A stretch of 64,000 nucleotides of DNA from Oscillospiraceae bacterium (lineage in GTDB: Bacteria > Bacillota > Clostridia > Oscillospirales > Ruminococcaceae), in contig CADASU010000003.1 of the NCBI GenBank assembly GCA_902790675.1, positions 1-64,000 of the forward strand. Direction: 5' to 3'. The position numbers and the translations under genes are program-made. The notes under the pieces are model-generated. The model worked only from the letters and a program-made list of their open reading frames with translations, made no database searches and had not been told where the DNA came from. This document shows, piece by piece, positions 2,896 to 19,761 of the stretch (position 1 is the first letter of the stretch; each line of letters opens with the position of its first letter).

Positions 2896-2920
2896 TTTAT
2901 CTCCTGTAAATATGTGTTAG

Positions 2921-4237: not shown

Positions 4238-4447
4238 GAAAACTTCTCCATTTGAACGTAATTAGTAATTTATATAATCAACAATTATAAAATTGCTACC
4301 ATATATGTTAAGATATTATAACATTAATTACCATATAATTCAAGATAAAGTTTATATAAAACTAATTTTGTTGTTGCTTGTTGTTATTTTTGTTTTGTGA
4401 TAAAATTAATTTTACCATTAATACTGTCTATAAAGGAATGATTAACT

Positions 4448-4984
4448 ATGAAATTATTATTGCACGTTTGTTGTGCGCCTTGTTCTATAAAGTGTATAGA
4501 ACAGCTCAGAGAGGAAAATATAGAGCCAACATTGTTTTGGTATAACCCTAACATACATCCTTTTACAGAATACAGAAACAGGAAAAATGCGCTTATAGAA
4601 TATGCCAAGAACATGAATTTAAAACTTATAGTTGATGATAATTATGGACTGCGGTCTTTTATTTCAGCTGTTGCTCCAAATTTTGATGCAAGATGTGAAT
4701 ATTGCTATACAGAAAGATTAAGTAAAACGGCTAAATATGCTGCGGATAATGGCTATAGTGCGTTTTCAACAACTTTGCTTATAAGTCCATATCAAAATCA
4801 TGATAGAATAAAACAAATATCAGAAGAAATATCTGCTGATATTGGAACTGAGTTTTTATACAGAGATTTTCGGCCATATTTTAGAGAAGGACAAAATATG
4901 GCAAGAAGCATGAATATATATATGCAAAAATATTGTGGCTGTATATTCAGTGAAGAAGAACGATATATAAAGGAAAAAATGTAA
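4448..4984 (+). CDS. queH: Epoxyqueuosine reductase QueH
   Basis: A 178-residue protein beginning MKLLLHVCCAPCS, the signature of QueH (formerly DUF208). The family converts epoxyqueuosine to queuosine in tRNA without cobalamin. The conserved cysteines are the N-terminal CC-x2-C, the central RCEYCYTERL and the C-terminal YCGC, which hold an iron-sulfur cluster and a nearby metal in the known structure. The length matches the family. It is monocistronic, ends at a 22-bp hairpin, and has AAAGGAATG just before the start. No other queuosine genes are in the window. Confidence 0.93.
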   Translation: MKLLLHVCCAPCSIKCIEQLREENIEPTLFWYNPNIHPFTEYRNRKNALIEYAKNMNLKLIVDDNYGLRSFISAVAPNFDARCEYCYTERLSKTAKYAADNGYSAFSTTLLISPYQNHDRIKQISEEISADIGTEFLYRDFRPYFREGQNMARSMNIYMQKYCGCIFSEEERYIKEKM

Positions 4985-4992
4985 TGATATAA

Positions 4993-5050
4993 GTAATTTA
5001 TGTCAATATATTAATTTTTTATTAACATATTGACATAAATTACATTTTTT
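4993..5050 (+). terminator. Long AT-rich inverted repeat, probable terminator of queH
   Basis: Two 22-nt arms (4993-5014 and 5022-5043) pair with a single mismatch around a 7-nt loop, TTTTTTA. Six T residues follow after CA. The stem is much longer than a usual terminator and is almost symmetrical, so it could also be a bidirectional terminator or a protein binding site at the edge of the NHLM cluster. Confidence 0.6.
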
Positions 5051-5299
5051 GTTAATATTATATTGTGAATTTAGTAGATATTGTATATTTATCATGATTT
5101 TTGTAGTTTTAATAGCAATATTTATGTTAAATTTAGTATTTTTTGATAAACGTAGTGTTTTTAATTAAGAATTTATGGTTATAATAGAAGTATGTATTGG
5201 CAATTTTGTTTAGTATAATAATATGTTTTGTTCTTTAGACCAAAATATATTGTTTGATATTATTTGAAAAACAAACACTAATCAAAAGGAGAGTGCATT
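5044..5299. other. Long leader region before the NHLM cluster
   Basis: About 250 nt of AT-rich DNA without a reading frame lies between the queH terminator and the STAS gene. The promoter of the cluster should be here. TATAAT-like hexamers are present (for example near 5215), but none has a well-spaced TTGACA, and I see no SigB-like GTTTAA/GGGTAT pair. Control by an alternative or activated promoter is therefore possible. Confidence 0.4.
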
Positions 5300-5596
5300 A
5301 TGGAAATTATTAAAAATTTAGATAACGATAAATTAACGATTGCAATTAAAGGAAGACTAGATACTACAACGGCGCCTTCTCTTGAAAAAGAGCTAAAGAG
5401 TGCGTTAAACGGAGTTACAGAACTAATTTTTGACTTGTCCGATCTTGAGTATGTTTCGTCTGCAGGGCTTAGAGTTTTGCTTTCTGCGCAGAAGGTAATG
5501 AATAAACAGGGTAGCATGGTAATAACACATGCTAATACAGACATAATGGATGTTTTTGAGGTTACAGGTTTTGTTGATATATTGAACATAGAATAG
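5300..5596 (+). CDS. STAS-domain anti-anti-sigma factor (RsbV/SpoIIAA type)
   Basis: A 98-residue single-domain STAS protein. The motif DLSDLEYVSSAGLRVLL (about residues 45-61) holds the conserved serine (S53/S54) that an RsbW-type kinase phosphorylates and a PP2C phosphatase dephosphorylates. The family binds the kinase in its unphosphorylated form and so frees a bound sigma factor or other partner. Both matching enzymes, a SpoIIE-type phosphatase and an RsbW-like kinase, are encoded 2-4 kb downstream, so a complete partner switch is present. AAGGAGAG precedes the ATG. A 200-nt gap separates it from the GH3 gene, so it may have its own transcript. Confidence 0.88.
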   Translation: MEIIKNLDNDKLTIAIKGRLDTTTAPSLEKELKSALNGVTELIFDLSDLEYVSSAGLRVLLSAQKVMNKQGSMVITHANTDIMDVFEVTGFVDILNIE

Positions 5597-5799
5597 TTTA
5601 ATTTTTGCTTTTTGTCTGTCATTTAATAATAAATTTTGATTTAAGTTTCTTTTGTTTAGAATTTTTTATAGATATAGAATAAAATAAGTTAGTTATCACA
5701 TTGCAGCGATGTATTGGTGGTTTGCTTTTTTATTTTTAAATTTTCAAATATTCTAAATTGAGCTTATTATTAAAATTTATTACTAAAGGGAAGGTAAAA

Positions 5800-7401
5800 A
5801 TGATGAAGGTAGAATTAAACTATGATTTGAAGACTGTTGGGGAGGTTAATTTTAGCTTTTTAAGAAAAATTTTGGGTGATAATGCGAATACTGAGTATGG
5901 AGTTAAACACAATTTTTCAAAAATAAAAACTATCGAAGATTATAGAAAATATGTTCCATTGTCAGATTATTACGATTTTAAGCAGTATGTTTATAGAATG
6001 TATGAAGGCGAAAAAAATGTATTGACTGCATATCCATTGGAGACATTTATTACTACATCAGGCACTACTGGTGAACCTAAGCGTATTCCATTAACCAAAA
6101 AATCTTTAGAGGGATATTTAAAAAATAAAGCTTTAGGTAAAGAAACTATTATCCAAGCTTGTCGAAAGGAAGATCCTTTTGCAAGTAGACTATATATTGG
6201 ATTTTTAGACACTAATTTAATGAGTTCATGTTGCAAGGAGATGCTACTTTCGGAGGCAATATATAAATGCGCATATACTAAAGGATATAGAGATATGAGT
6301 GGATATGTTGGCGGCGAAGATTTGTTAATGGTTGAGAATACTTTGGATGTATTTTATGTGAGGCTCTGGAGTGCAATTTTGGATGAACATATCGTTACAA
6401 TTGAAGGCATATATATGTATGATTTGCTTCAATTTTTTAAGTTTTTTGAGGAAAAATATGAAGAAGTAATATCTAATATTAGAAATGGATTTATTCCGGA
6501 TGATTTGGTATTGTCAGATAATGTTAGAAAAAAACTACTTGAATTGCCTGTATCAGAAGAACGGTTGAGTTTTGTCGAAAAAGAATGCAAGAAGGGCTTT
6601 GAGGGCATAGCGTCTAGAATATGGCCGAAAATAAAGTTTGCATATGGTATTAGTAGTAAAGTATATGGATATCAAAATAAAAGATTAGACAAATATTTAG
6701 GTGATGTGCCCAAAATTTTTTCTTTCTTCGCCATGTCTGAGTCTTTAGTTGGTTCTCCTGTTGATTATGATAGCTTTGAGTATGAATTTATTTATGATAG
6801 TGCTTTTTACGAATTTATTGTTTTCGATGAACAAGGTAGTCTTTGTGAAGAAGTTGTTTCAATTGACGAGGTGCAACCTGGTAGAATGTATGAGTTGGTT
6901 GTGACTAATTTATCTGGCTTTTATAGATATAAAACTGGAGATGTTATAAAAATTTTAGGCCATTCTGACCAAAAAGTAACATTTGAATTTATGTTTAGAA
7001 AAAATTTGGTTTTAAATTTGGCTGGTGAGAAAATTTCAAGTAAACATATAGAATTGGCTATGCAAAAAATGGATGATGTGGTTCATGGTATATTAGAATA
7101 TTCTGTTGGAGCAAAATTAGTTGATAATGTGGGAAAATATTTTGTGTTTTTATGTACAAAATCAACTAATATGGGTTTAATTGAGAGCGACATATCTGAA
7201 AAATTTGATCTATTTTTGTGTGAAATTAATTATTTATATAAAGAATTACGAACGTTAAATCTTATTGATAAGCCTGTGGTGCACGTTTACAATGAAGAAA
7301 AATATTTTTCAATTATAAACAAGAAAACTGCTAAGAAAAGACATAACAAACCTATTAATATTTTATCTTTAAAAAATTTGCAGGTGATATTGGAAAGGTG
7401 A
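5800..7401 (+). CDS. GH3-family acyl-adenylating enzyme
   Basis: A 533-residue protein of the GH3 (auxin-responsive promoter) family. It has the ATP/AMP motif TTSGTTGEPKRIPLT near residues 84-98, the central FFAMSESLVGSP segment, and the motif LVVTNLSGFYRYKTGDVIKI typical of the family near residues 365-385. In plants GH3 enzymes activate a carboxylic acid with ATP and join it to an amino acid. Bacterial members are mostly uncharacterised. Here it sits between a STAS gene and a phosphatase gene of an NHLM cluster, 7 nt before the phosphatase, so it is cotranscribed with the export genes. Its substrate cannot be read from the sequence. The start chosen is the ATG with AAGGGAAGG 5 nt upstream; an in-frame TTG 42 nt earlier lacks a ribosome site. 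Confidence 0.85.
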   Translation: MMKVELNYDLKTVGEVNFSFLRKILGDNANTEYGVKHNFSKIKTIEDYRKYVPLSDYYDFKQYVYRMYEGEKNVLTAYPLETFITTSGTTGEPKRIPLTKKSLEGYLKNKALGKETIIQACRKEDPFASRLYIGFLDTNLMSSCCKEMLLSEAIYKCAYTKGYRDMSGYVGGEDLLMVENTLDVFYVRLWSAILDEHIVTIEGIYMYDLLQFFKFFEEKYEEVISNIRNGFIPDDLVLSDNVRKKLLELPVSEERLSFVEKECKKGFEGIASRIWPKIKFAYGISSKVYGYQNKRLDKYLGDVPKIFSFFAMSESLVGSPVDYDSFEYEFIYDSAFYEFIVFDEQGSLCEEVVSIDEVQPGRMYELVVTNLSGFYRYKTGDVIKILGHSDQKVTFEFMFRKNLVLNLAGEKISSKHIELAMQKMDDVVHGILEYSVGAKLVDNVGKYFVFLCTKSTNMGLIESDISEKFDLFLCEINYLYKELRTLNLIDKPVVHVYNEEKYFSIINKKTAKKRHNKPINILSLKNLQVILER

Positions 7402-7408
7402 AAAGACG

Positions 7409-9148
7409 ATGGAAAAGGTTTTTGTTAAAAGCAAACTGAAAACTAGGATTGTTATTTTTATAGTATCAATTTGCTTGGTGTTTGGAGTGTTGCTGATTTA
7501 CGTTAGCACAAATTTGTATAGACAACGAATAATTGACAGCTATACTGAGTATGGGAATAATGTTGCTGTTGCAACAGCAAAGTTATTTCCTGGTAATTCA
7601 CTTGAAGAGTATTCCGACATTGCTTTTAAATATAATAGATCACAGGTAGATAAAAGCAAGGTTAATGAAGTCTTAAATAGTGATGCATATAAAAATGTTT
7701 GTAGTCAAGTTGATGAATTAAGAAAGTCATTGGAATTTAATGATATATATGTTTGTGCTGTGGATCTAGATATTCTGAATAGTTATGATGCTGCAACTAC
7801 TAATCTTGATGAGTGGAATCCGCTGTATTATGTAGTTGATACTCACGTTGATGATAACCTTAAACAGTATTTTGCAGAAAAAGACAGATTTGCTATAAAA
7901 TACATCAAAAATATTATAGACGGTATTAATACTGGAGAAAACACGGGCGGTAATTATCCGGAGAACAGTAAATATGGCTATACTATAACTTTAACGCATC
8001 AAGTTTTTTCCAATGAAAAGTTTGCTGTTGTAGTTTGCTGTGACCTTAGTATTGATGACTATCAAAAAGATATTATGAATTTTATATTAATGACAACGAT
8101 TACTGTGCTTGTTTTGACGCTAATTTTGATATTTGTATCTTTGTTTATGATTTCACGACATTTTATAAAGCCCGTTGTTTCCATTGCTAATGAAGCTGAA
8201 AATTTTGCAGGTAATGAAGGGTGGGGGTTAAGTGCATTAGAAGAATTTAAGACAGGCGATGAAATAGAACTATTAGCGCGAAGCATATTGCAAATGCAGA
8301 AAAATATGTTTAAATATATGGACGATTCTATAAATAAAGCTATAAATTTGAAAAAAGTGCGAACTGAGCTCAATTTGGCTAAAAACATACAAGCGGATAT
8401 GTTGCCAGCAATATTTCCAGAATCTATTATAAGGAACAATTTTGATTTAGATGCATCTATGACACCGGCTAAAGAAGTGGGTGGAGATTTTTATGACTTT
8501 TTCTTTATAGATGATAATCAAAATCATTTAGCTTTGGTTATAGCAGACGTTTCGGGTAAAGGTGTTCCTGCTGCTTTATTCATGGTCATAGCTAAAACTT
8601 TGATTAAAGACAGAGCCAATATTAATTCGCCTGGTGAGAGCTATAGCCCAGCAAAAATTTTAGCTTATGTTAATGAACAACTTTGCGAAAATAATAAAAA
8701 TGAATTATTTGTTACTGTATGGCTTGCTATTATAGATATGCAAACAGGTGAATGTATATCTGCTAATGCAGGACATGAATATCCGGCTATTTGTAGAAAA
8801 GGAGAAAAGTATGAGTTAATTAAGGATAAGCATTCTCCGGCAGTTGCAACTATTGAAGGAATAAAGTTTAAAGATCAAGAGTTTAAATTAAATTCGGGAG
8901 ATTCTTTATTTGTTTATACTGATGGAGTTACTGAAGCTACAAATGCTGATGGAGAGCTTTTTGGAGAACAAAGACTAGTTGATGCGTTAAATAAAGATGA
9001 TAAGGCCTCTGCTTCGGATATTTTAAAAAATGTAAGAAAAGATGTTGATGAGTTTGTAGGAAAGGCGCCTCAATTTGATGATCTCACAATGGTTTGTTTT
9101 AAATATTATGGGAAGGATGGGGTCACTGATGAAAGAGATAAATGTTGA
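7409..9148 (+). CDS. Membrane-bound SpoIIE/RsbU-type PP2C phosphatase with HAMP domain
   Basis: A 579-residue sensor phosphatase. A first membrane helix (about residues 12-33) and a second (about 222-246) bracket a roughly 190-residue extracytoplasmic region. A HAMP linker follows (about 245-300), then a short coiled segment and a SpoIIE-type PP2C domain (about 340-575) with metal-binding motifs GGDFYDFF, ADVSGKGVPAALFM, TDGVTEA and DDLTMV. Such proteins dephosphorylate a phospho-STAS protein in response to an external signal. The natural substrate here is the STAS protein of the same cluster. The outer domain has no signature I recognise. It is tightly packed between GH3 and the kinase gene, overlapping the latter by 20 nt. 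Confidence 0.9.
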   Translation: MEKVFVKSKLKTRIVIFIVSICLVFGVLLIYVSTNLYRQRIIDSYTEYGNNVAVATAKLFPGNSLEEYSDIAFKYNRSQVDKSKVNEVLNSDAYKNVCSQVDELRKSLEFNDIYVCAVDLDILNSYDAATTNLDEWNPLYYVVDTHVDDNLKQYFAEKDRFAIKYIKNIIDGINTGENTGGNYPENSKYGYTITLTHQVFSNEKFAVVVCCDLSIDDYQKDIMNFILMTTITVLVLTLILIFVSLFMISRHFIKPVVSIANEAENFAGNEGWGLSALEEFKTGDEIELLARSILQMQKNMFKYMDDSINKAINLKKVRTELNLAKNIQADMLPAIFPESIIRNNFDLDASMTPAKEVGGDFYDFFFIDDNQNHLALVIADVSGKGVPAALFMVIAKTLIKDRANINSPGESYSPAKILAYVNEQLCENNKNELFVTVWLAIIDMQTGECISANAGHEYPAICRKGEKYELIKDKHSPAVATIEGIKFKDQEFKLNSGDSLFVYTDGVTEATNADGELFGEQRLVDALNKDDKASASDILKNVRKDVDEFVGKAPQFDDLTMVCFKYYGKDGVTDERDKC

Positions 9149-9536
9149 GGCTAATGTTGATAACTTGTATAAAGTGCTTGGCTTTATAGAGCAGCAATTA
9201 AATGGTGTTAACTGTGATGCTAAAAATCAAAACCGACTTTTGATTGCAGTTGAAGAGATATTTATTAATATAGCTAAATATGCTTACAAAGACGGTAATG
9301 GTTCTATTAAAGTTCAAGTTTCTTTTTCAGCTAATAATAGTGTTATCACTGCTGTTTTTATAGATAGTGGAATTAAATATGATCCACTTGCTAAGGAAGA
9401 CCCAGATATTGGCTTGTCTGCTTCTGAAAGGCCAATTGGAGGTTTAGGAATATATATTACAAAAAAGTTTGTTGATGAGATTTTTTATGATTATAAGAAT
9501 AATCAAAATATTCTTACGATAAAAAAACAAATTTAA
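9129..9536 (+). CDS. RsbW-type anti-sigma factor / serine kinase (HATPase_c_2)
   Basis: A 135-residue GHKL ATPase. The N box is LLIAVEEIFINIAKYAY (about residues 36-52) and the G box is RPIGGLGIYITKKF (about 105-118), the pattern of RsbW/SpoIIAB kinases. These proteins bind a sigma factor or other target and phosphorylate the STAS antagonist. With the neighbouring phosphatase and STAS protein it completes a partner switch. No cognate sigma factor is encoded in the cluster; the only sigma factor in the window is the housekeeping RpoD far away. The start chosen is the ATG inside the end of the phosphatase gene, with GGAAGG upstream; an earlier in-frame ATG has no better site. Confidence 0.87.
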   Translation: MKEINVEANVDNLYKVLGFIEQQLNGVNCDAKNQNRLLIAVEEIFINIAKYAYKDGNGSIKVQVSFSANNSVITAVFIDSGIKYDPLAKEDPDIGLSASERPIGGLGIYITKKFVDEIFYDYKNNQNILTIKKQI

Positions 9537-9558: not shown

Positions 9559-10032
9559 ATGCCAAGCAATGTTTTTAGAGAAAAAAGTATGGAGAGAGTT
9601 TCTTCGCCGGAGCAGTTGAACGATTATATTAAAGTTTCTAATCCGGCAGTATGGATGGTAATTTCTAGTGTTATTATTCTATTAATTGGTGTTTGTGTTT
9701 GGGGAGTTCTTGGAAAGCTTAATACTGTGATTAAAACTGGTGGAGTTTGCCGTAATGGAGTGGCTTGTTGCTATGTTAAAGAAGCTGATGTTTCTAAAAT
9801 TAAGGCTGACTCTACTGTTAGTGTTGATGGAAATGATTACACCGTTGCTTCAATGTCAAAATCTCCCGTAAAAGCTGGGGAAAATGTAGATCCTTATATT
9901 TTACATCTTGGCAATATAGGAGATAATGACTGGGTTTATGAGGTGTTTTTTAATGCGCCGCTAAAGAATGACAAATATGAAATGAACATAACTGTAGATA
10001 GTGTATCACCGATGTCGTTTATTTTGAATTGA
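9559..10032 (+). CDS. Short NHLM-type bacteriocin secretion protein (HlyD-like N-terminus)
   Basis: A 157-residue protein with the pattern FREKSMERVSSPEQLNDYI, then a membrane helix at about residues 32-52. It matches the N-terminus of NHLM system secretion proteins, the membrane-fusion (HlyD) partner of NHLM exporters. Known HlyD proteins are about 400 residues with long coiled coils and a lipoyl-like domain; here only about 100 residues follow the helix, forming one small beta-rich domain (VSVDGNDYTVASMSKS). It is therefore a shortened form. The stop codon is clean and I see no downstream remnant, so it looks natural and not broken. GAGGGAGG lies 8 nt before the ATG. It is 20 nt upstream of the exporter gene. 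Confidence 0.8.
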   Translation: MPSNVFREKSMERVSSPEQLNDYIKVSNPAVWMVISSVIILLIGVCVWGVLGKLNTVIKTGGVCRNGVACCYVKEADVSKIKADSTVSVDGNDYTVASMSKSPVKAGENVDPYILHLGNIGDNDWVYEVFFNAPLKNDKYEMNITVDSVSPMSFILN

Positions 10033-10051: not shown

Positions 10052-12241
10052 TTGAGTGCTGTTAAAAATATAAAAAGTCCTGTAGCTAATGGTGTAGCTA
10101 AAGTGCCAGTTATAATGCAAATGGAAGCACTTGAATGCGGGGCAGCTTCGCTGACTATGATATTGGCATATTATCAAAAATGGATTGCTCTTGAGCAAGT
10201 TAGATCTGACTGTGGAGTTTCTCGTGATGGATCTAATGCAAAAAATATAATGATAGCTGCGAGAAATTATGGCTTATCTGCTAAGGGCTATCGCTATGAG
10301 CCTGATGAACTGAGACAAAAAGGAAAATTTCCTTGCATAATTCATTGGAATTTTAACCATTTTGTGGTATGCGATGGATTTAGAGGAGATAAAGTATATC
10401 TTAATGATCCTGCTAGAGGAAATGTTACAGTTTCTGCGAAAGAGTTTGATGAATCTTTTACAGGAATATGCTTGATGTTTGAACCAACAGATGAGTTTGA
10501 ACCTAGTGGAAAACCAAAGAGCATTTTTGAATTTGCAGCAAAAAGATTAAAAGGAACAGGAACTGCAGTTGCATTTGTTATTTTAACCACAGTAATATCT
10601 TCTTTGATGGGAATTATTAATCCCGGATTTTCACGTATATTCTTAGACCGACTTATAACAGGCGTGAATCCTGATTGGTTTGTTCCGTTTTTGTTGGCAT
10701 TATCTGGATTTGCCTTTATTCAGATACTTGTAGAGTGGATTAAGGCCATATATTCGTTAAGAATAAACGGAAAATTGGCTGCTGTTGGTAGCACATCTTT
10801 TATGTGGAAAGTTTTACGATTGCCAATGGAGTTTTTCTCGCAGAGGATGGCGGGAGATATTCAATTAAGACAACAATCTAATGCTTCTATAGCTGAAAAG
10901 TTAATTGTTACAATCGTTCCGTTGGCCTTGAATACTGTAATGATGATTTTTTATCTTATTGTTATGCTAAGATATAGTGTTTTGCTGACTTTAGTAGGAG
11001 TATCATCTGTTGCAATCAACATATTTATTTCTAATATTGTTTCAAAAAAGCGTATTAATATTACTAGAATTCAGATGAGGGATTCAGGTAAACTTGCTGG
11101 TACTACGGTTGCAGGAATTGAGATGATTGAGACTATCAAAGCAAGTGGAGCAGAAAATGGTTTTTTTACAAAATGGTCTGGATATCAAGCAAGTGTTAAT
11201 ACTCAAACTGTTAGGTTTGTTAAGCTTAGCAAATATTTGGGATTGTTGCCTGTATTATTTAATAATTTAAGCTCAGCAGCTGTTGTTATATTAGGCGCTT
11301 TTTTGGTTATTCAAAACCAATTTACAGTTGGTATGGTTATGATGTTCCAAGGCTTTTTGCAATCGTTTAGCGCCCCAGCTAGTCAACTTGTATCTGCTGG
11401 ACAAACTTTGCAAGAAATGCGCACAGAAATGGAACGTGTTGAGGATGTTATGGAATATCCTGTTGACGTAGAAGAAGACCACGATGATGGTAATTCAGAT
11501 AACGATGAAGAATATGATAAATTGTCTGGTAATGTTGAATTGAAAAATGTTACTTTTGGATATTCTAGTCTTGGAGAACCTTTGGTTAAAAATTTCAACC
11601 TTTCTTTAAAACCAGGAAATCGAGTTGCATTTGTTGGAACATCGGGATGTGGAAAATCTACTCTTTCAAAATTAATTTCTGGTTTATATAAGCCTTGGAG
11701 TGGTGAGATTTTATTTGATGGTAAGCCTATAAAAGACATTGATCGTAGTGTTTTTACCGGATCTTTAGCTGTTGTTGACCAGGACATAATATTGTTTGAA
11801 GATACTATTTCTAACAATATAAAAATGTGGGATAAATCTATTGAGAACTTTGAGGTAATTATGGCTGCTCGAGATGCACAAATACATGATGACATTATGC
11901 ATCGTGATGGTGGATATGATTATAAAATTATGGAAGGTGGAAAAGACTTTTCTGGTGGGCAGAGACAGCGTATGGAAATTGCTAGAGTTTTAGCTCAGGA
12001 CCCTACAATTATTATTCTCGATGAAGCAACTTCTGCGCTTGATGCAAAAACAGAGTATGAAGTAGTAAAATCTATTAAAGATAGAGGAATTACTTGTATT
12101 GTTGTTGCGCACCGTCTTTCTACAATTCGTGATTGTGATGAAATTATTGTTATGGATAGAGGAAATGTTGTAGAACGAGGAACTCATGACGAGCTATACG
12201 CTAAAGGTGGTTATTATACACAACTTGTATCTAATGAATAA
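10052..12241 (+). CDS. NHLM bacteriocin exporter, C39 peptidase/permease/ATPase
   Basis: A 729-residue three-domain exporter. The N-terminal C39 peptidase has the catalytic triad C29 (MEALECGAAS), H103 (FNHFVVCDGF) and D119 (LNDPARG); it cuts precursors after a double glycine. Six membrane helices fill about residues 165-450. The ATPase has Walker A GTSGCGKST (about 527-535), signature SGGQRQR (about 633) and Walker B IIILDEATSALD (about 651-662). Its cognate substrates are clearly the Nif11-like precursors downstream, which carry Gly-Gly at the leader end. Between TMD and ATPase is an acidic linker (EEDHDDGNSDNDEEYD). Translation starts at TTG with AAAGGAG 8 nt upstream. Confidence 0.95.
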   Translation: MSAVKNIKSPVANGVAKVPVIMQMEALECGAASLTMILAYYQKWIALEQVRSDCGVSRDGSNAKNIMIAARNYGLSAKGYRYEPDELRQKGKFPCIIHWNFNHFVVCDGFRGDKVYLNDPARGNVTVSAKEFDESFTGICLMFEPTDEFEPSGKPKSIFEFAAKRLKGTGTAVAFVILTTVISSLMGIINPGFSRIFLDRLITGVNPDWFVPFLLALSGFAFIQILVEWIKAIYSLRINGKLAAVGSTSFMWKVLRLPMEFFSQRMAGDIQLRQQSNASIAEKLIVTIVPLALNTVMMIFYLIVMLRYSVLLTLVGVSSVAINIFISNIVSKKRINITRIQMRDSGKLAGTTVAGIEMIETIKASGAENGFFTKWSGYQASVNTQTVRFVKLSKYLGLLPVLFNNLSSAAVVILGAFLVIQNQFTVGMVMMFQGFLQSFSAPASQLVSAGQTLQEMRTEMERVEDVMEYPVDVEEDHDDGNSDNDEEYDKLSGNVELKNVTFGYSSLGEPLVKNFNLSLKPGNRVAFVGTSGCGKSTLSKLISGLYKPWSGEILFDGKPIKDIDRSVFTGSLAVVDQDIILFEDTISNNIKMWDKSIENFEVIMAARDAQIHDDIMHRDGGYDYKIMEGGKDFSGGQRQRMEIARVLAQDPTIIILDEATSALDAKTEYEVVKSIKDRGITCIVVAHRLSTIRDCDEIIVMDRGNVVERGTHDELYAKGGYYTQLVSNE

Positions 12242-12254
12242 AGGGGGATAGAGA

Positions 12255-14441
12255 ATGAGCTGGTTTAATGAGCAAATAAAACAACGTAAACAGAGCGACA
12301 GAGACACGTTTGCTGATTCTTTTGTTAACATAGCTGGTGCTGTTATGGGCCGCAAAGTTCAAGTGGCGCTTAGTGATGATATACAAGTTACAAAAGACGC
12401 GGTAGATGAAATTTTAAAATTTTATCATATAAAAATTCAGGAAGTTCCAGATGATATTAAAGATGTTAATGAACAAATTGAGTTTTTGATTAGACCCCAT
12501 GGAATTATGCGTAGAATGGTTAAGTTGTCAAAAGGATGGCACAAAGACGCTATTGGAGCCATGATTGGATTAAGAAAAAGTGATGGAAGAATAGTGGCAC
12601 TTATACCTACGGGCATATCTGGATATAGTTATATTGATCCCGATACAGGCAAAAGAGTTGGAATTAACGGAAGAACTGAGGAACTATTTGAAGAGGACGC
12701 TATGGTGTTTTACAAGCCGTTTCCACTTAAAAAATTAGACATAAAAGGACTTTTAGTTTATATCGTTCAAACTCTTTCGATGGCTGATTTTGTTCTTGTT
12801 GCGGTGTCAGCTTTTGCGGTTACTTTGGTTGGCATGCTTACTCCAAAAATTAACAAAATTATATTTTCTTATGTTGTTGAGTCTGGGAGTATGCAGATAT
12901 TGGCGGCAATTGCAATATTTTCAGCGGCGGTATTAATCAGTAGTCACATGTTAACTATCATTAAAGAAATTGTTAGTAGCAGAATAGTTACCAAAATGAA
13001 CATAACTGTTCAAGTAGCGACTATGATGAGAGTATTATCTCTACCAGCTAAATTTTTTAAAGATTATAGTGCTGGTGAACTTTCATCAAGAACGCAAATT
13101 ATAAATCAGCTTTGTCAAATGCTTGTTACAAATGTTTTGCAAACAGGACTAACTTCGGTATTTTCTCTGGTTTATATTTCGCAAATTTTTGCATATGCAC
13201 CAGCATTGGTCTTTCCAGCTATTCTTGTTATAGTTGCTACTGTTGTATTTTCATTAATTGTGGCACTTATGCAAATGAAAATTACTATAAAGCAAATGAA
13301 ACTATCATCTAAAGAAAGCGGATTAACTTTTGCTTTATTATCTGGTATTCAAAAAATAAAGCTTTCTGGAGCTGAAAAAAGATCTTTTGCTCGTTGGGCA
13401 AAAGTGTATTCTGAACAAGCACAGTTGCTATATAGTCCTCCTTTATTAATAAAAATTAATAAAGTTATAACAACTATGATTACGCTGAGCGGAACTATAG
13501 CAATGTATTATTTTGCAGTGTTGAGTCATGTTTCGGCAGCCGATTATTTTGCATTTAATACTGCTTATGGCATGGTTTCTGGAGCATTTATGGGACTTGC
13601 GGGTGTTGCATTAGACATTGCTAAAATAAAACCTATTATGAATATGGTAAAGCCTATTTTGGAAGCGGTCCCAGAAATATCAGAAGGAAAGAACGTTGTA
13701 ACGAGGCTTTCTGGAGGAATTGAAGTTAACAATGTTACTTTCGGATATGATGAAAGCATGCCCCCTATATTGAATGATATATCTTTAAAGATAAAACCGG
13801 GACAATATGTTGCAATAGTTGGCACAACTGGTTGCGGTAAATCAACGTTAATGAGAATTATGTTAGGATTTGAAACTCCGAAAAAAGGATCTGTTTATTT
13901 TGATGGTAAAGATTTGAGTAATCTTGACTTAAAATCTTTAAGAAAAAAAATTGGAACTGTTATGCAGAATGGAAAATTGTTTGAGGGTGATTTGTTTTCA
14001 AACATAACAATATCGGCGCCAGAGCTCACTATGGACGATGCTTGGGAAGCAGCTGAACTTTCTGGAATGGCAGATGATATTAGAAATATGCCTATGGGAA
14101 TGCAAACTATAGTTTCAGAAGGTGGTGGCGGAATTTCTGGAGGTCAGAGACAAAGACTTATGATTTCTAGAGCTATTGCGCCAAAACCTAGAATATTAAT
14201 GTTTGACGAGGCTACATCTGCTTTGGATAATTTAACTCAGAAAAAAGTTTCTGAATCACTTGATAATTTAAAGTGTACTAGAATTGTAATTGCCCATAGG
14301 CTATCTACAATAAGGCAGTGTGATAGAATCATAGTTCTTGATAAAGGTAGAATTATTGAAGATGGAACTTATGATGAGCTTATTGCACAAGAAGGATTTT
14401 TTGCAGAACTGGTTGAAAGACAAAGATTAGATAAAAAATAG
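12255..14441 (+). CDS. NHLM bacteriocin system second ABC transporter protein
   Basis: A 728-residue ABC half-exporter lacking the C39 peptidase. The first 170 residues form a soluble domain typical of the second NHLM transporter (RKSDGRIVALIPTGISGYSY region). Membrane helices lie at about 175-450, and the ATPase has Walker A GTTGCGKST (about 520-528), signature ISGGQRQRLM (about 627) and Walker B ILMFDEATSALD. It starts 13 nt after the C39 exporter and is nearly the same size, so the two probably form a heterodimer. An export role is inferred from the family and context. Confidence 0.93.
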   Translation: MSWFNEQIKQRKQSDRDTFADSFVNIAGAVMGRKVQVALSDDIQVTKDAVDEILKFYHIKIQEVPDDIKDVNEQIEFLIRPHGIMRRMVKLSKGWHKDAIGAMIGLRKSDGRIVALIPTGISGYSYIDPDTGKRVGINGRTEELFEEDAMVFYKPFPLKKLDIKGLLVYIVQTLSMADFVLVAVSAFAVTLVGMLTPKINKIIFSYVVESGSMQILAAIAIFSAAVLISSHMLTIIKEIVSSRIVTKMNITVQVATMMRVLSLPAKFFKDYSAGELSSRTQIINQLCQMLVTNVLQTGLTSVFSLVYISQIFAYAPALVFPAILVIVATVVFSLIVALMQMKITIKQMKLSSKESGLTFALLSGIQKIKLSGAEKRSFARWAKVYSEQAQLLYSPPLLIKINKVITTMITLSGTIAMYYFAVLSHVSAADYFAFNTAYGMVSGAFMGLAGVALDIAKIKPIMNMVKPILEAVPEISEGKNVVTRLSGGIEVNNVTFGYDESMPPILNDISLKIKPGQYVAIVGTTGCGKSTLMRIMLGFETPKKGSVYFDGKDLSNLDLKSLRKKIGTVMQNGKLFEGDLFSNITISAPELTMDDAWEAAELSGMADDIRNMPMGMQTIVSEGGGGISGGQRQRLMISRAIAPKPRILMFDEATSALDNLTQKKVSESLDNLKCTRIVIAHRLSTIRQCDRIIVLDKGRIIEDGTYDELIAQEGFFAELVERQRLDKK

Positions 14442-14487: not shown

Positions 14488-15876
14488 ATGCATTATAGAT
14501 TGAAAGATAATTTTTTATTAAGAGGATGGGATCTGCTTCCATTTGCTTTATATGATGCTAAAACTCATAGTGTAAATTTTTTCGATAAACATGCCTTTTC
14601 TATTATTAGTCTTTGCGATGGTGAAAATTTTATCGATATTAATACGCTTACATCAGATCAGCAGCGTCTATTGAATGATTTCATTAGTAAAGATATTGTT
14701 GAAAAATGTGACCATGTTTTTCCGCTAAATGATAGGCAAAAATATATAAAGTTTCCTTGTAGATATATGGCTTCAGCACATTGGTCCATTACTGGCAAGT
14801 GTAATTATAAATGTAGACATTGTTTTATGTCAGCTACTGATGTAAATGCTTGCGAATTGCCATTAGCTGACATAAAAAAAATAATTAAAGAATTGGCTGA
14901 ATGTGGAATATACAGTGTTTCACTTACTGGAGGAGAGCCCTTAGTTAGAGATGATTTTCTTGAAATTTTAGATGCACTTATGGACGCTCAGATTAATGTT
15001 GATGGAGTTTATACTAATGGAAAGCTGCTTAATAACGAATTGTTAGATGCTTTTGAAGCAAGAAATATGAAGCCCACTATCCATATGAGCTATGATGGAA
15101 AAGGTTGGCATGATTGGATTAGAGGAATACCTGGTGCTGAAAAATATGTTATAGATGCTTTTGCACTGTGCAAAGAAAGAGGCTTTGCAACAACAGCAGA
15201 GATGTGTATTCATAAAAAAAACAAAGATACATTTTGTGAAACTGTAGATAAGCTGGCTGATTTAAACTGTATGAGTTTAAAAATTAATGCAGCTGATGAA
15301 TTGGGAAATTGGGCGAAAACTTCTACGAAATATTCGTTATCAGTAAAAGAAAAAGACGATATTTATTTAGATTATATAAAGCAATTTTTTGAAAATGGAA
15401 TGAAAATATCACTACAATTAGATTCATTTTTTATGTGTGAAAAAGGTTCTACAAAATATAGGTTGCCATTGATACAAAATGACTCTAAACTTGACTATTT
15501 GAAAAGGGTGCTTTGTAGGTCCGCTAGAAATACATTATACATTAGCCCAGAAGGAATTGTCTTACCATGTATGCCTTTTGTTAGCACTGAATTAAAAAAT
15601 ACTTATCCTAGCATTTTAGATAATAAATTGTGTGATATTTTATCTAACTCTTGTTATATGAAAACCATAGACACTAGATTGAAAGAATATTTTGATTTTA
15701 ATCCGGAATGTAACGAATGCGAGCACAAAGGAGTATGCGATGGTGGATGTAGAGCAGAGGCGGCTATTCACAATTCGAACTATATGGCAAAAGACTTGCA
15801 GGCATGTTATTTTTTCAAAAATAATTATAAAGAAAAAATTGAAAAGGTGGTTGACTCTGTATTAAAAAAATCATAG
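14488..15876 (+). CDS. Radical SAM/SPASM peptide maturase
   Basis: A 462-residue enzyme. The radical SAM cluster motif is C105-x3-C109-x2-C112 and the GGEP motif is at 148-151. The C-terminal SPASM region has C343, C361, C408, C411, C417, C421 and C440, enough for two auxiliary iron-sulfur clusters. The first 85 residues, including HAFSIISLCDGENF, look like a PqqD-type peptide-recognition domain. Enzymes of this build install thioether or C-C crosslinks, epimerise residues or otherwise alter ribosomal peptides. It lies directly upstream of the precursor array and is the only clear modifying enzyme besides GH3. Which precursors it acts on and the chemistry are unknown. Ribosome site AAAGGG precedes ATG. 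Confidence 0.9.
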   Translation: MHYRLKDNFLLRGWDLLPFALYDAKTHSVNFFDKHAFSIISLCDGENFIDINTLTSDQQRLLNDFISKDIVEKCDHVFPLNDRQKYIKFPCRYMASAHWSITGKCNYKCRHCFMSATDVNACELPLADIKKIIKELAECGIYSVSLTGGEPLVRDDFLEILDALMDAQINVDGVYTNGKLLNNELLDAFEARNMKPTIHMSYDGKGWHDWIRGIPGAEKYVIDAFALCKERGFATTAEMCIHKKNKDTFCETVDKLADLNCMSLKINAADELGNWAKTSTKYSLSVKEKDDIYLDYIKQFFENGMKISLQLDSFFMCEKGSTKYRLPLIQNDSKLDYLKRVLCRSARNTLYISPEGIVLPCMPFVSTELKNTYPSILDNKLCDILSNSCYMKTIDTRLKEYFDFNPECNECEHKGVCDGGCRAEAAIHNSNYMAKDLQACYFFKNNYKEKIEKVVDSVLKKS

Positions 15877-15943: not shown

Positions 15944-16228
15944 ATGTCATTAGAGAGTGCAAAACAATTTTTATCACGAGTTGAATCGGATCCAAGTATT
16001 TTGGATGAAATTTCAGATAGTATAGATGAAGCGGAAACAGATGATAAAAAGCTTAGTGTTATTGTTTTTTTTGCACAGAAGATAGGATATGATTTTACAG
16101 CTCTTGATATTAAAACCGTTTCATCAAAAATTGGAAATGTTGATGATGATCAATATGAGGTTTATGGTGGTATATCTAATTTAAGACGCAAATATTTGTC
16201 TAAATTTAGATTTACTAAAAGAAAATAA
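15944..16228 (+). CDS. Nif11-like (NHLP) precursor peptide 1, strongly basic core
   Basis: A 94-residue precursor. The leader starts MSLESAKQFL, contains the typical IGYDFTALDI segment (GYDFT of the Nif11 domain) and ends in YEVYGG at residues 71-76, the expected C39 cut site. The predicted core of 18 residues is ISNLRRKYLSKFRFTKRK, with 8 Arg/Lys, no Cys and no acidic residue, which looks like a cationic antimicrobial peptide. The leader end differs from the NVAGG of later members. It follows the radical SAM gene by 67 nt and may be in the same transcript. The ribosome site GGTGGCG is moderate. Confidence 0.88.
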   Translation: MSLESAKQFLSRVESDPSILDEISDSIDEAETDDKKLSVIVFFAQKIGYDFTALDIKTVSSKIGNVDDDQYEVYGGISNLRRKYLSKFRFTKRK

Positions 16229-16273
16229 AGCAGAATTTTGATTTATCGTTAATTTATGAAGGATGCGATATAA

Positions 16274-16549
16274 ATGTCATTAAAAAGTGTGAAAGAATTT
16301 TTGTTAGATCCTATTGCTAGTGATGAAGTTAGTGCAATCATATCTTCGCTGGACTTAAAAGATAATGATCTTAACAAAAAAATAGATATAATTGTAGTTG
16401 AGGCAGCTAAGAGAGGATATGATTTTACTGCATCAGAACTTAGAGAGATTGTTGATGATTATGCATCTATTATTGAAGACGACAAATTTAAAAATATAAA
16501 TGGTGGAAGCGGAAAAATAAATACTATAATTAGGTGTATATTGCCGTAA
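16274..16549 (+). CDS. Nif11-like (NHLP) precursor peptide 2
   Basis: A 91-residue precursor with leader MSLKSVKEFL ... KRGYDFTASELREIV and leader end KNINGG at residues 73-78. The predicted core is short, SGKINTIIRCILP, 13 residues with one Cys. It has no charge pattern in common with core 1. The distance of 45 nt from precursor 1 suggests cotranscription. AAGGATG precedes the ATG. The single Cys rules out an intramolecular disulfide but would allow a radical-SAM thioether. Confidence 0.87.
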   Translation: MSLKSVKEFLLDPIASDEVSAIISSLDLKDNDLNKKIDIIVVEAAKRGYDFTASELREIVDDYASIIEDDKFKNINGGSGKINTIIRCILP

Positions 16550-16575
16550 TGTGAGTTTATATTAGTGAATGTATG

Positions 16576-16711
16576 ATGAATATATCAAATGATAGGCTAA
16601 AGAAAGCTTTTATGAGCTTGAATCTAATTTTGATTAAATAAGCAGTTTATAAATTGTGCAGATAGTTTGAATAATTTTAGTGATCAAGATAAAAAATTTA
16701 TCTTGAACTGA
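16576..16711 (+). pseudogene. Possible decayed Nif11-like precursor (relic A)
   Basis: A short frame from ATG reads NDRLKKAFMSLNLILIK then stops; in a shifted frame from 16634 follows LNKQFINCADSLNNFSDQD and KKFIL. This order resembles the leader of precursor 7 of the array (KKFF-SLESN-LLKSKF--LLNN---TKEEQ--KII). No Gly-Gly end or core remains. The 3' part overlaps a perfect 10-bp inverted repeat (arms 16684-16693 and 16697-16706), so a structured RNA or terminator is a competing explanation. Confidence 0.35.
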
Positions 16712-16767
16712 AAATTTTTAAATTTATGTGATTTGTTTCTTTATTATTAGTGGTTGAACATTACTTT

Positions 16768-16820
16768 CCCCTATAGATTTTATGCTTTTACTTCATTTGT
16801 GTTAATAAAAGCTATATGGG
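16768..16820 (+). other. Imperfect long hairpin in the precursor array
   Basis: GCTTTTA (16784-16790) pairs with TAAAAGC (16806-16812), and the outer CCCTATA pairs with TATATGGG around a one-sided bulge. A 9-bp palindrome, ATAGATAAA / TTTATCTAT, lies just downstream at 16833-16851. No T run follows, so this is more likely an RNA structure or binding site ahead of the decayed precursor than a terminator. Confidence 0.35.
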
Positions 16821-16904
16821 AGAGCATAATTTATAGATAAAATTTATCTATTTTATATGTTCTTTTATGTGAATGTAGTTGATTTAGCAAAGGAAGAGGC
16901 TAAA

Positions 16905-17095
16905 ATGTCAAAAAAGAAAGTGCAAAAAAATTTGAGCAAGATTTACAGTAAAATTTATCGTTGAAGAATAAATTTGAGGATGTGCTAAATAGTGCTAGCA
17001 ATTTAAGTAAAGATGAGAAGAAAAAAATCATCGAATTTATGAATAAAGAAGGTTATGATGTTAATCCAGTTGATTTTAAAGGTGATGGCAATATT
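16905..17095 (+). pseudogene. Decayed Nif11-like precursor (relic B): frameshift, nonsense and lost core
   Basis: A good ribosome site (AAGGAAGAGG) and ATG are kept. The start should read MSKESAKKFEQDLQ, but two extra A residues in an A run shift the frame, which then ends at TGA (16962-16964). In the original frame a TAA at 16949-16951 stands where the related precursor has Ser (TCA). From there LSLKNKFEDVLNSASNLSKD and KKKIIEFMNKEGYDVN continue as a normal Nif11 leader. The leader end with Gly-Gly and the entire core are missing: the sequence runs straight into the ribosome site of the next precursor. Three separate lesions make a dead gene certain enough; its nearest relative is the precursor starting at 18956. 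Confidence 0.82.
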
Positions 17096-17112
17096 ATGAG
17101 GAGAGGATTAGA

Positions 17113-17397
17113 ATGTCAAAAGAAAGTGCAAAAAATTTTTTGTTAAATTCTGATGTTAGCTCTGAAGTTAATAACATGGTTGAAAAAACTATAAAAGACA
17201 ATCGTCAAAATAAAGAAAAGTTAAATATGATATCCGATGAAGCAAGCAAGCATGGATATAATTTCACTATTGATGAATTAAAGCAAGCTTTAGAAGAAAT
17301 TTCGTCTATGAGTGAAGGTGATTTGTCTAATGTTGCTGGTGGAAGTGTTCCTAATTTAATTATAGGCTCGGTTAAAGGATACTTTGTTGGCATATAA
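17113..17397 (+). CDS. Nif11-like (NHLP) precursor peptide 3, hydrophobic core
   Basis: A 94-residue precursor with leader MSKESAKNFL ... KHGYNFTIDELKQAL and the canonical end LSNVAGG at residues 71-77. The predicted core is SVPNLIIGSVKGYFVGI, 17 residues, hydrophobic and glycine-containing, with one Lys and no Cys. AGGAGAGG lies before the ATG. The upstream relic B abuts its ribosome site. Confidence 0.88.
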   Translation: MSKESAKNFLLNSDVSSEVNNMVEKTIKDNRQNKEKLNMISDEASKHGYNFTIDELKQALEEISSMSEGDLSNVAGGSVPNLIIGSVKGYFVGI

Positions 17398-17428
17398 ATT
17401 AAAATAATGACAATACTATGATAAGATA

Positions 17429-17541
17429 ATGTCAAAAGAAGATGTAAGTATATAGTATTGATTATGGTGATTTAAAAGAAGATATTTTCCAGAATAATCA
17501 TATGAATTGAGTTATTATTATTTGTTTGATGTTGCTGGATA
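17429..17541 (+). pseudogene. Remnant of a Nif11-like precursor (relic C)
   Basis: An ATG followed by TCAAAAGAAGATGTAAG gives MSKEDV, the usual precursor start, then a stop after two more codons. About 100 nt later TTTGATGTTGCTGGA gives FDVAG followed by a stop, matching the DNVAGG leader end. The middle is reduced and frame-broken. The two end pieces at about half the normal spacing suggest a deleted, dead precursor. Confidence 0.5.
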
Positions 17542-17607
17542 AAAACTTAATGTAGCTAGATTTGGGGGCCATTAAGAACTATCCAGAAGAACATTCACAT
17601 CATTTGA

Positions 17608-17636
17608 AATATAGAAAATTTTTTATTTTCTATATT
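17608..17636. repeat. Perfect 11-bp inverted repeat upstream of precursor 4
   Basis: AATATAGAAAA and TTTTCTATATT pair across a 7-nt loop. It sits about 40 nt upstream of the next precursor ATG and could be a terminator of the previous transcript or an operator. Confidence 0.45.
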
Positions 17637-17676
17637 AATATAATTAATTTTAAATTAATAGGGGAGGGAATTTAAA

Positions 17677-17988
17677 ATGTCAAAAGAAAGTGCTAAGAAA
17701 TTTATGGAAGATTTTTCAAGTAAACCAAAATTAATTAAAGAGGTTAAAAGACATTTAGAAAAAATTCATGATAAAGATGATAGTTTGAAATATCTTTGCG
17801 ATTTTGCGCATTCAAAAGGTTATAATTTTAGCATGGAAGAACTGAACTTATTTATGGAAGACTTTAAGAATTCACTTAGTGATGAAGAATTAGATAATGT
17901 TGCTGGTGGCGCTGAAGATTGGAAATCAATATTAAAAGGCACTGGAAGGGATCTGTTAGTTAAACTAGTAAGCAGTTGGTTGTCTTAG
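17677..17988 (+). CDS. Nif11-like (NHLP) precursor peptide 4, amphipathic core
   Basis: A 103-residue precursor with leader MSKESAKKFM ... KGYNFSMEELNLF and end LDNVAGG at residues 72-78. The predicted core of 25 residues runs from AEDWKSILKG to LVKLVSSWLS. It has no Cys; spacing of Trp, Leu, Ile and Val against Lys, Arg and Asp suggests an amphipathic helix like those of leaderless bacteriocins. GGGGAGGG lies 8-15 nt upstream of the ATG, the strongest ribosome site of the array. Confidence 0.88.
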   Translation: MSKESAKKFMEDFSSKPKLIKEVKRHLEKIHDKDDSLKYLCDFAHSKGYNFSMEELNLFMEDFKNSLSDEELDNVAGGAEDWKSILKGTGRDLLVKLVSSWLS

Positions 17989-18127
17989 TATGAATTATTT
18001 AAAAAAGGGCTACAAGTGAGTGATTTTAATGTGGAATGCAAAGATGAATAATAATTGCTAAAATCAATAGTAATAGTTTTAATACTAGGAGTTTTATATA
18101 AAAATATGTTGTTTTTGGAGGAGTAAA

Positions 18128-18430
18128 ATGTCTAGAGAAGGAATAAATAAATTTATATTAGATGTGAGTAAAAATCCAAAACTATCTAAAATATTGAAGA
18201 AGGCAAAACAAAGTTTTGCTTCTAATGAAGAAAGGTTTGAGTATATATCAGAAGAAGCAAAAAAATATGGATATGATTTCACTGCAAGTGACATGATATT
18301 AGAAATGGGAAAACATAGTGGTAGTCTTTTGGACGATGATGATTTGTCTAATGTTGCCGGTGGTAAATCAATGCGCGTTAATCCATCTGCGACTGATGAA
18401 GCAAAGAAGTTTTGGAAATTGATTAGGTAG
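18128..18430 (+). CDS. Nif11-like (NHLP) precursor peptide 5
   Basis: A 100-residue precursor with leader MSREGINKFI ... KYGYDFTASDM and end LSNVAGG at residues 73-79. The core starts KSMRVNPSATDEAKKF and ends WKLIR, 21 residues, basic, no Cys, with a possible amphipathic C-terminal helix. GGAGGAG precedes the ATG. A terminator-like hairpin follows 10 nt after the stop. Confidence 0.87.
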   Translation: MSREGINKFILDVSKNPKLSKILKKAKQSFASNEERFEYISEEAKKYGYDFTASDMILEMGKHSGSLLDDDDLSNVAGGKSMRVNPSATDEAKKFWKLIR

Positions 18431-18439
18431 AAAATTTTT

Positions 18440-18500
18440 GGGGGTAAAGTTTGTTTGGCTTTATTTTAAGTTGCTATTTCTTTCCCCCTTGTTTATTTTT
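18440..18500 (+). terminator. Terminator-like hairpin inside the precursor array
   Basis: GGGGG-T-AAAG at 18440-18449 pairs with CTTTCCCCC at 18480-18488 with one bulged T and a 30-nt loop; TTGTTTATTTTTTTG follows. It is by far the most GC-rich stem in the array and should end or attenuate the transcript after precursor 5. Confidence 0.65.
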
Positions 18501-18576
18501 TTGTAGTAAATTTTGTGAATTATAGAAAAAATATGATTAATATTGATTTTTGTTAATAAGAAAGGGTGAGAGTAGA

Positions 18577-18870
18577 ATGTCTTTGCAAAGTGCAATAGAA
18601 TTTATAAATCGTGCGCATTTAGATGCTGAGTTAAGCAATAGTGTTAGTGAAGTCATATCTAATGATTGTAGCGAAGCGGATAAATACAGGTCTATTATTT
18701 CTATTGCTAACGATATGGGCTATGAGTTTACTCTGGAGGAATGGAAAGAAGCTTTGTTGTTGCCATCTAGTGAAGAATCATATGAAGATGAATTGCTAAA
18801 TGTTGCTGGTGGTTTAAAAGAGCCTGATCGTCCTCAATTGTATTGCAAAGGATTTGGTGTAAACATGTAG
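18577..18870 (+). CDS. Nif11-like (NHLP) precursor peptide 6
   Basis: A 97-residue precursor with leader MSLQSAIEFI ... NDMGYEFTLEEWKEAL and end LLNVAGG at residues 73-79. The predicted core is LKEPDRPQLYCKGFGVNM, 18 residues with two Pro, one Cys and a Gly-rich end. The start is the ATG that has AAAGGGTGAG upstream; an in-frame ATG-less extension of nine codons begins inside that ribosome site region and is rejected. As it lies after a terminator it probably has its own promoter. Confidence 0.87.
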   Translation: MSLQSAIEFINRAHLDAELSNSVSEVISNDCSEADKYRSIISIANDMGYEFTLEEWKEALLLPSSEESYEDELLNVAGGLKEPDRPQLYCKGFGVNM

Positions 18871-18955
18871 AAATATATCAATATGAACAATTGCAAAATA
18901 TGCTTAAATCATCTTATTGTGGTTTAATTTTATATTAATAAAAGAGGCGACTAAG

Positions 18956-19381
18956 ATGTCAAAAGAAACTGCAAATAAATTTTTCAAAAGCTTGGAGTCT
19001 AATTCGCTGTTGAAAAGTAAATTTGACGATTTGCTAAACAATATTAGTGGATTGACTAAAGAAGAACAGGCAGAAAAAATAATTGAGTTTGCGAAAAAAC
19101 AAGGCTATGAAATTGATAAAAGTGACGTTAAAGATAATGTTTTTTCAGTAAATTCAGGAGAGCTTAGTGAAGATGAATTATTAAATGTTGCTGGTGGAGT
19201 AGCTAAATGGTGTTGGTGGTCTAGCATAACAAAGCCAAAACTTCAAAAAAATCAAAAAGCATATTTATGTAACGATGGTGGTTATCGTATTGATACTATG
19301 TATTTAGACGGTATAGTAGAAACGACATATTATAATGCAAATGGTGAAGAAGAAGGTACGGTCTTGGGAAAACAGATGTGA
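18956..19381 (+). CDS. Nif11-like (NHLP) precursor peptide 7 with an unusually long core
   Basis: A 141-residue precursor. The leader MSKETANKFF ... KKQGYEIDKSD ends in LLNVAGG at residue 81. The core is about 60 residues, three times longer than the others. It begins VAKWCWWSSITKPKLQKNQK, has a second Cys in YLCNDGGYRID, and ends with an acidic, tyrosine-rich part (TTYYNANGEEE). The C-terminal part looks like a small folded beta domain. A disulfide or thioether between the two Cys is possible. AAAGAGG precedes the ATG. The leader is the closest relative of dead relic B. Confidence 0.88.
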   Translation: MSKETANKFFKSLESNSLLKSKFDDLLNNISGLTKEEQAEKIIEFAKKQGYEIDKSDVKDNVFSVNSGELSEDELLNVAGGVAKWCWWSSITKPKLQKNQKAYLCNDGGYRIDTMYLDGIVETTYYNANGEEEGTVLGKQM

Positions 19382-19449
19382 GCATCGTTGAATAACCCTT
19401 GTAAGGAAACATATTTTTATTTAATTAAATGAGAAAGGAAGTAATGCTA

Positions 19450-19761
19450 ATGTCATTAGAACATGCGAGAAAATTTGTTGTAGACTTTGATGCTGATCCA
19501 AAACTTCGCATTAGAATTGCTGAAAAGAAAAAGGAAATGAAAGAAAATAATGCAGGAAATTATGATGAAATGGAATTGTTATTTTCTATAGCTAAAGAGC
19601 GTGGATATGATTTTACTGTTGATGAATTAAAAGAGGCAAATGGCAGTATGGTTGGAGAAATTTCAGATGATGAATTATCAAACGTGGCGGGTGGTTTAGA
19701 GCTGAACTATGATGACCTATTAAAAAAGGCAACTAAATATATGGGTGATTTATTAAATTAG
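19450..19761 (+). CDS. Nif11-like (NHLP) precursor peptide 8
   Basis: A 103-residue precursor with leader MSLEHARKFV ... KERGYDFTVDELKEA and end LSNVAGG at residues 76-82. The 21-residue core starts LELNYDDLLKKATKYM and ends GDLLN; it is amphipathic, has no Cys and is nearly neutral. The ATG at this start lies 9 nt after AAGGAA; an in-frame ATG two codons earlier is too near to the ribosome site. Confidence 0.87.
   Translation: MSLEHARKFVVDFDADPKLRIRIAEKKKEMKENNAGNYDEMELLFSIAKERGYDFTVDELKEANGSMVGEISDDELSNVAGGLELNYDDLLKKATKYMGDLLN

Follow-up and report, generated by a model that had tools for sequence, protein, structure and literature searches.

The interval 5300-9536 of the window (the whole stretch of DNA analysed, 64,000 nucleotides) contains four genes, encoding a STAS-domain protein, a GH3-family enzyme, a SpoIIE-type phosphatase, and an RsbW/SpoIIAB-like kinase. 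They are followed by genes for peptide export, a radical SAM protein, and a run of precursor peptides (Table 1). An earlier reading of the letters without database searches (the sequence-only reading) had described STAS protein, phosphatase, and kinase as a complete partner-switch module. All three genes are indeed intact, but the GH3 gene (5803-7401) inside the interval had gone unmentioned. By ORF coordinates, the phosphatase and kinase genes overlap by 20 nt, and gaps of 7, 22, 19, and 13 nt separate GH3 from phosphatase, kinase from HlyD, HlyD from ABC1, and ABC1 from ABC2, respectively. This bears out the tight packing previously noted for phosphatase, kinase, secretion protein, and exporters (overlap of 20 nt, gaps of 13-22 nt). 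The exception is the STAS-GH3 gap of 206 nt, compared with an overlap or 7-22 nt throughout the stretch from GH3 to ABC2.

Table 1. Genes and sites of the cluster (coordinates in the window)
Feature	Coordinates	Strand	Evidence
Promoter-like site TTGACA-17-TAATAT, extended -10 (TG)	5030..5058	+	consensus scan; ~240 nt before STAS start
STAS-domain protein, anti-sigma-antagonist type, 98 aa	5300..5596	+	Pfam STAS, TIGR00377
GH3-family acyl-adenylate/amide synthetase, 532 aa	5803..7401	+	Pfam GH3 and GH3_M
Membrane SpoIIE-type PP2C phosphatase, 579 aa	7409..9148	+	Pfam SpoIIE
RsbW/SpoIIAB-like serine kinase (HATPase_c_2), 135 aa	9129..9536	+	Pfam HATPase_c_2
Short HlyD-like NHLM secretion protein	9559..10032	+	TIGR03794, 29.7 bits
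NHLM exporter ABC1 with C39 leader peptidase	10052..12241	+	TIGR03796
NHLM exporter ABC2	12255..14441	+	TIGR03797
Radical SAM/SPASM peptide-maturase-like protein	14488..15876	+	Pfam Radical_SAM, SPASM
Run of ~8 Nif11-type precursor genes	15944..19761	+	Pfam Nif11, TIGR03798, repeats D1-D5
DUF7005 protein, HECTH metalloprotease-like motif	19852..20697	+	Pfam DUF7005, 179.6 bits

The downstream genes resemble those of NHLM/Nif11 RiPP export systems, with ABC1, ABC2, an HlyD-like protein, and Nif11-type precursors. ABC1 scores 959 bits with TIGR03796 (cut-off 853) and ABC2 728.5 bits with TIGR03797 (cut-off 709). The HlyD-like protein stays under the TIGR03794 cut-off (29.7 vs 156.2 bits), with a match confined to its N-terminal part; this short form is common to most related loci. 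The radical SAM protein exceeds the Radical_SAM cut-off (66.4 bits) and falls just under that of SPASM (20.9 bits). Among the precursor genes, which start for example at 15944, 16274, 17113, 17677, 18128, 18577, 18956, and 19450, the first reaches 28 bits with Pfam Nif11 (cut-off 23.8), the remaining ones lie at or just under the cut-off, and the TIGR03798 match is 31 bits; most end their leader with a GG-type motif. By its ABC1, ABC2, and Nif11 scores, the cluster is of the NHLM/Nif11 RiPP export type, with HlyD below its cut-off.

Two further sites resemble precursor genes. Positions 16900-17110 of the window open like a precursor gene, with repeat family D1 at 16902, but the frame is broken, and the stretch looks like a decayed precursor copy. 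On another contig of the same genome, near sigK (C7; L005 2081-2323), a short ORF carries an NHLM-type leader end, ELSEDELFNVAGG, and is a possible precursor gene distant from the cluster.

The three switch proteins retain the residues expected of active components. The STAS protein matches Pfam STAS (6e-15, 55.4 bits) and exceeds the TIGR00377 cut-off (67.7 bits). Its Ser54 aligns with Ser58 of SpoIIAA, is invariant in 29 aligned STAS proteins, and is predicted to be the phosphorylated residue, in line with the phosphorylatable serine of the sequence-only reading. The kinase matches HATPase_c_2 (2.5e-19, 70 bits) and retains the N-box Glu/Asn, the G1 Asp-Gly-Pro, and the G2 glycines, so that the N and G boxes claimed for it are present with all catalytic motif residues. 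These residues are likewise kept in the family members that are stand-alone (60/60), fused to a phosphatase (18/18), or fused to an APH-type protein (6/6).

The phosphatase (Pfam SpoIIE 2.5e-47, 161.8 bits) combines two membrane helices, an outer domain (approximately residues 36-221), a HAMP-like linker, and a PP2C domain, as had been described, with the HAMP match just under its cut-off (21.5 vs 25 bits). The PP2C motifs GGDFYDF, ADVSGKG, YTDGV, and QFDD are invariant across 16 homologues, and the fold of the modelled PP2C domain matches those of Rv1364c (RsbU domain, Z 23.6), SiaA (Z 22.8), and SpoIIE (Z 21.9). With its STAS serine, kinase boxes, and PP2C metal motifs, the trio qualifies by sequence as an RsbU/V/W-type partner switch.

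The 190-residue outer domain, searched alone against Pfam, gave no significant family. Modelled on its own (mean pLDDT 88), it is a single Cache sensor fold, the model matching DcuS (Z 12.4 over 131 residues), an Oscillibacter formate chemoreceptor (Z 12.3), and CitA (Z ~11). This fold agrees with the sensor role previously proposed for the domain, which would respond to an external signal. Our guess from the fold is that the ligand may be a small metabolite.

To establish whether the trio accompanies NHLM exporters in other strains, we surveyed genomes bearing these exporters. Eighty loci were collected by ABC1 similarity. Counting the window, 42 loci were well flanked, with 7 kb or more to either side. 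Of these 42, 28 carry two or more of the STAS, kinase, and phosphatase genes no farther than ~10 kb from the exporter, and 25 carry all three, with the kinase gene usually just upstream of HlyD. One carrier of the module is the culturable Anaerocolumna sedimenticola (locus L086). Since loci picked by similarity to a query are mutually related, we turned to an exporter tree (FastTree), which contains 12 gains or losses of linkage in its best form, at least 7 of them forced by well-supported branches. Linkage of the trio to NHLM genes thus extends to many genomes besides this one, mostly within one large branch of gut Clostridia, which disposes of the objection that the association might be peculiar to one genome.

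Genome samples from the phylum and the class, drawn irrespective of the trio, contain ABC1 in ~5-6% of genomes, and linkage is rarer in them: of 36 well-flanked loci, 4 have two of the three genes within ~9 kb. Members of the kinase family, delimited at > ~120 bits by a gap in the scores, occur within the class sample in 11/22 other NHLM genomes and in 31/368 genomes without NHLM (P 1.8e-6, kinship uncorrected). For the 27 other ABC1 loci in the same sample, 3 kinase genes lie within 20 kb, against 0.05 expected for an assumed average genome of 2.4 Mb. This excess, together with the exporter tree, rules out chance proximity of kinase and ABC1. The linkage is real and apparently undescribed: open-access titles and abstracts yielded no report tying NHLM or Nif11 to partner switching, SpoIIE, RsbW, or STAS, and the main text of Haft et al. 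2010 on NHLM/Nif11 systems (PMC2887384) mentions neither sigma factors nor phosphatases.

Most known partner switches control sigma factors. The absence of a sigma gene from the cluster, stated in the sequence-only reading, is confirmed, with none next to the kinase, where a SigB/SigF-type switch would have it; an RpoD gene does lie in the window, outside the cluster at ~38.2-39.4 kb. The whole genome (1.19 Mb, 13 contigs, estimated 100% complete) has five Sigma70_r2 genes, which we named RpoD, SigF, SigE, SigG, and SigK by inspection of sequence and neighbours. The SigF gene follows a spoIIAA-spoIIAB pair and the SigE gene a spoIIGA-like gene. A sister genome (G806, locus L079) has the same cluster in the same order and likewise five sigma factors of similar lengths.

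Many NHLM loci also contain an ECF-type sigma factor. A profile that sets its true members apart by a wide score gap (A1) detected no such ECF in the window's genome or in the sister. With RpoD and four sporulation sigmas as the whole complement, and no NHLM-type ECF, a sigma factor dedicated to the trio is therefore unlikely here. The earlier proposal had left the target as either a remote sigma factor or a non-sigma protein; the first option is weakened by the five sigmas and the missing ECF, and the second is favoured.

An ECF factor of the NHLM type could nevertheless have been the ancestral client, lost with genome reduction to leave the trio as a remnant or retargeted. Among 42 loci with at least two trio members, the ECF is present in the locus in 12 and elsewhere in the genome in 8. 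At L017 and L021 the ECF gene stands directly before the kinase gene, an order that suggests a sigma client in those loci. Yet 22 of the 42 trio-bearing genomes have no ECF, some of these absences possibly being gaps in draft assemblies, while 20 of 48 sampled NHLM loci have an ECF without the trio. Trio and ECF are, moreover, uncorrelated on the exporter tree, where independent pairs are few. All parts being intact in both ECF-less sister species further argues against a dying remnant, and we regard loss of an ancestral ECF client as improbable.

The ECF gene is often paired with a gene for a 60-70-residue protein that precedes it, for example at L015 12008-12758, L021 19663-20350, L083 14411-15234, and L125 7266-7942, among others. 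This small protein has a leader-like end, LSDDDLExVNAAGE, in place of the usual GG end (alignment A2). As a speculation by analogy, it may regulate the ECF sigma, either by being exported or by mimicking a leader, much as FlgM does in flagella. Like the ECF, it is absent from the window's cluster.

Alternatively, the kinase could act as an anti-sigma factor for RpoD or one of the sporulation sigmas, the switch then tuning transcription of the cluster or tying peptide production to sporulation. By sequence, SpoIIAB and RsbW are its closest relatives of solved structure, in a profile biased by inclusion of the genome's own SpoIIAB. There is also a precedent in Chlamydia, where the Rsb network is reported to govern how available the primary sigma factor is (PMC4552016). 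On the other hand, SigF already has its own SpoIIAB in this genome, to which the kinase is only 17% identical. The regions before 18 genes for precursors and DUF7005 proteins, taken from two species, share no promoter motif above the level of shuffled controls, a weak test in such AT-rich sequence. Taken together, we consider an anti-sigma role towards RpoD or a sporulation sigma rather unlikely, if the strongest of the alternatives.

Upstream of the STAS gene, the site at 5030..5058 looks, by consensus match, like a housekeeping-type promoter, and the sister locus has TTGACA-17-TAAAAT with the TG in the same place. Because the site is close to consensus and kept in the sister, the operon appears open to transcription by the housekeeping sigma. 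Promoter-like sites across the region are not in excess (93 vs 85 in shuffles), so we note only this one. The ~235 nt between it and the STAS gene (5059-5299) contain more blocks kept in the sister, among them a second TATAAT near 5185.

The GH3 protein is a firm family member (Pfam GH3 183.5 bits, cut-off 23.6; GH3_M 64.5 bits, above cut-off), and GH3 is also part of the module in L079, L158, and L167. One could regard trio and GH3 as a module with a general envelope or metabolite role that happens to neighbour the exporter and exerts no control over peptide export. The module, GH3 included, does exist without NHLM genes (L158) and occurs in further contexts, and the class has few GH3 genes (36 among 391 genomes), yet three of them, the window's and two others, sit in the module adjoining the kinase family. 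Such a bystander would hardly be expected to keep its kinase right before HlyD-ABC1 in the majority of linked loci (tens of nucleotides here), or to have its linkage repeatedly gained or kept on the exporter tree. We therefore rate mere adjacency as very improbable.

Homologous modules elsewhere offer further hints about possible clients. Outside NHLM loci, the STAS-phosphatase-kinase set occurs with GH3 and a MATE protein (L158) or with an LPG-synthase-type protein and a MATE protein (L148), and two loci (L150 and L151) encode APH-type proteins fused to the kinase. We also found 22 MATE proteins that end in a kinase-like domain; the match is significant for 16 of them taken singly, and nearly all have lost catalytic residues. 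These transporter and enzyme partners suggest, from gene neighbourhood and domain content, non-sigma outputs, and the degenerate MATE-fused domains may be receivers for STAS. Open-access titles and abstracts held no report of MATE-HATPase fusions with such a link. In the window's genome, only a plain MATE protein and no MATE-kinase fusion was detected, which leaves a different client for its switch, perhaps GH3 or a part of the exporter.

Several of these fusions can be located precisely. The MATE-kinase proteins include L083 3241-5001, L142 15714-17432, and L158 6365-8059, among others, and at L150 5343-6914 an APH domain is joined to an intact kinase domain. Within NHLM loci, a STAS domain is fused to an APH-type phosphotransferase at L047 8284-9462 and L090 1898-3058. 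A methyltransferase-like protein ending in STAS follows an ECF gene at L043 15436-16644.

We lean towards the reading that a self-contained Cache-PP2C/STAS/HATPase switch within the NHLM/Nif11 cluster has some client that is not a dedicated sigma factor, and hold it at about even odds. No sigma factor is set aside for the switch in this small genome, and the controlled protein is therefore probably something other than the usual transcription factor. In the proposed sequence of events, a small extracellular ligand would bind the Cache domain of the phosphatase, which would then strip the phosphate from Ser54 of the STAS protein. The unphosphorylated STAS protein would bind the kinase and thereby free the kinase's client, if the switch runs in the presumed direction; without the signal, the kinase would phosphorylate the STAS protein and hold the client. 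The most likely client, we infer, is a protein of the module itself, involved in export or maturation or being the GH3 enzyme. Control would therefore fall on protein activity and not on transcription, as reported for BtrUVW of Bordetella. Judging from gene order, peptide production would be what the switch controls.

In favour of the non-sigma reading, we counted the intact residues, the repeated linkage, the five sigma factors, the missing ECF, the enzyme and transporter partners, the housekeeping-like promoter, and the Bordetella precedent. Against it stand the ECF-kinase gene order in L017 and L021 and the absence from the window's genome of the fusions that hint at clients.

Several characterized systems bear comparison with this arrangement. 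RsbU/RsbV/RsbW and SpoIIE/SpoIIAA/SpoIIAB of Bacillus share the three protein types with their catalytic residues, the kinase profile, and the PP2C fold, but the operon described here has no sigma factor, its genome has no dedicated one, and the genes belong to a peptide-export cluster with a GH3 enzyme. SiaA/SiaB/SiaC/SiaD of Pseudomonas aeruginosa resembles it in the outer sensor, the HAMP-like linker, and the PP2C domain (fold Z 22.8). SiaA is also the phosphatase's best NCBIfam match, yet far under the cut-off (74.8 vs 700 bits). The output of SiaABCD is a diguanylate cyclase, a gene that the window's cluster lacks. In Bordetella, BtrU/BtrV/BtrW control type III secretion through a circuit with no known sigma factor (PMC8256260). 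That system likewise ties a membrane phosphatase, a STAS protein, and a kinase to a secretion machine, but the machine and the phylum differ, and the likeness would be one of mode of action.

In gut Clostridia, the same three proteins have been joined many times to machinery for exporting peptides, even in genomes with no spare sigma factor, which makes directly testable what else a partner switch can hold. The arrangement also suggests that a small molecule outside the cell may be the signal that activates gut RiPP clusters, which have been little studied, and the fusions of MATE transporters to pseudokinases in relatives hint at one concrete type of client. More broadly, and only tentatively, a family of partner switches in Clostridia may have given up the sigma factor and come to act directly on transporters and enzymes. 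The STAS protein would then dock on MATE-fused pseudokinase domains or on STAS- or kinase-linked enzymes; in NHLM clusters, such a switch would gate the export or maturation of peptides through protein activity.

Two further loci are of note. Adjoining a STAS gene in L022 are tandem sodium:dicarboxylate-symporter-type proteins (2833-4404 and 4414-5988) with a weakly kinase-like N-terminal extension. In L158, after the GH3-MATE module without NHLM genes, two near-identical proteins (10165-12562) have a start that, by eye, resembles eCIS-core (DUF4157) proteins.
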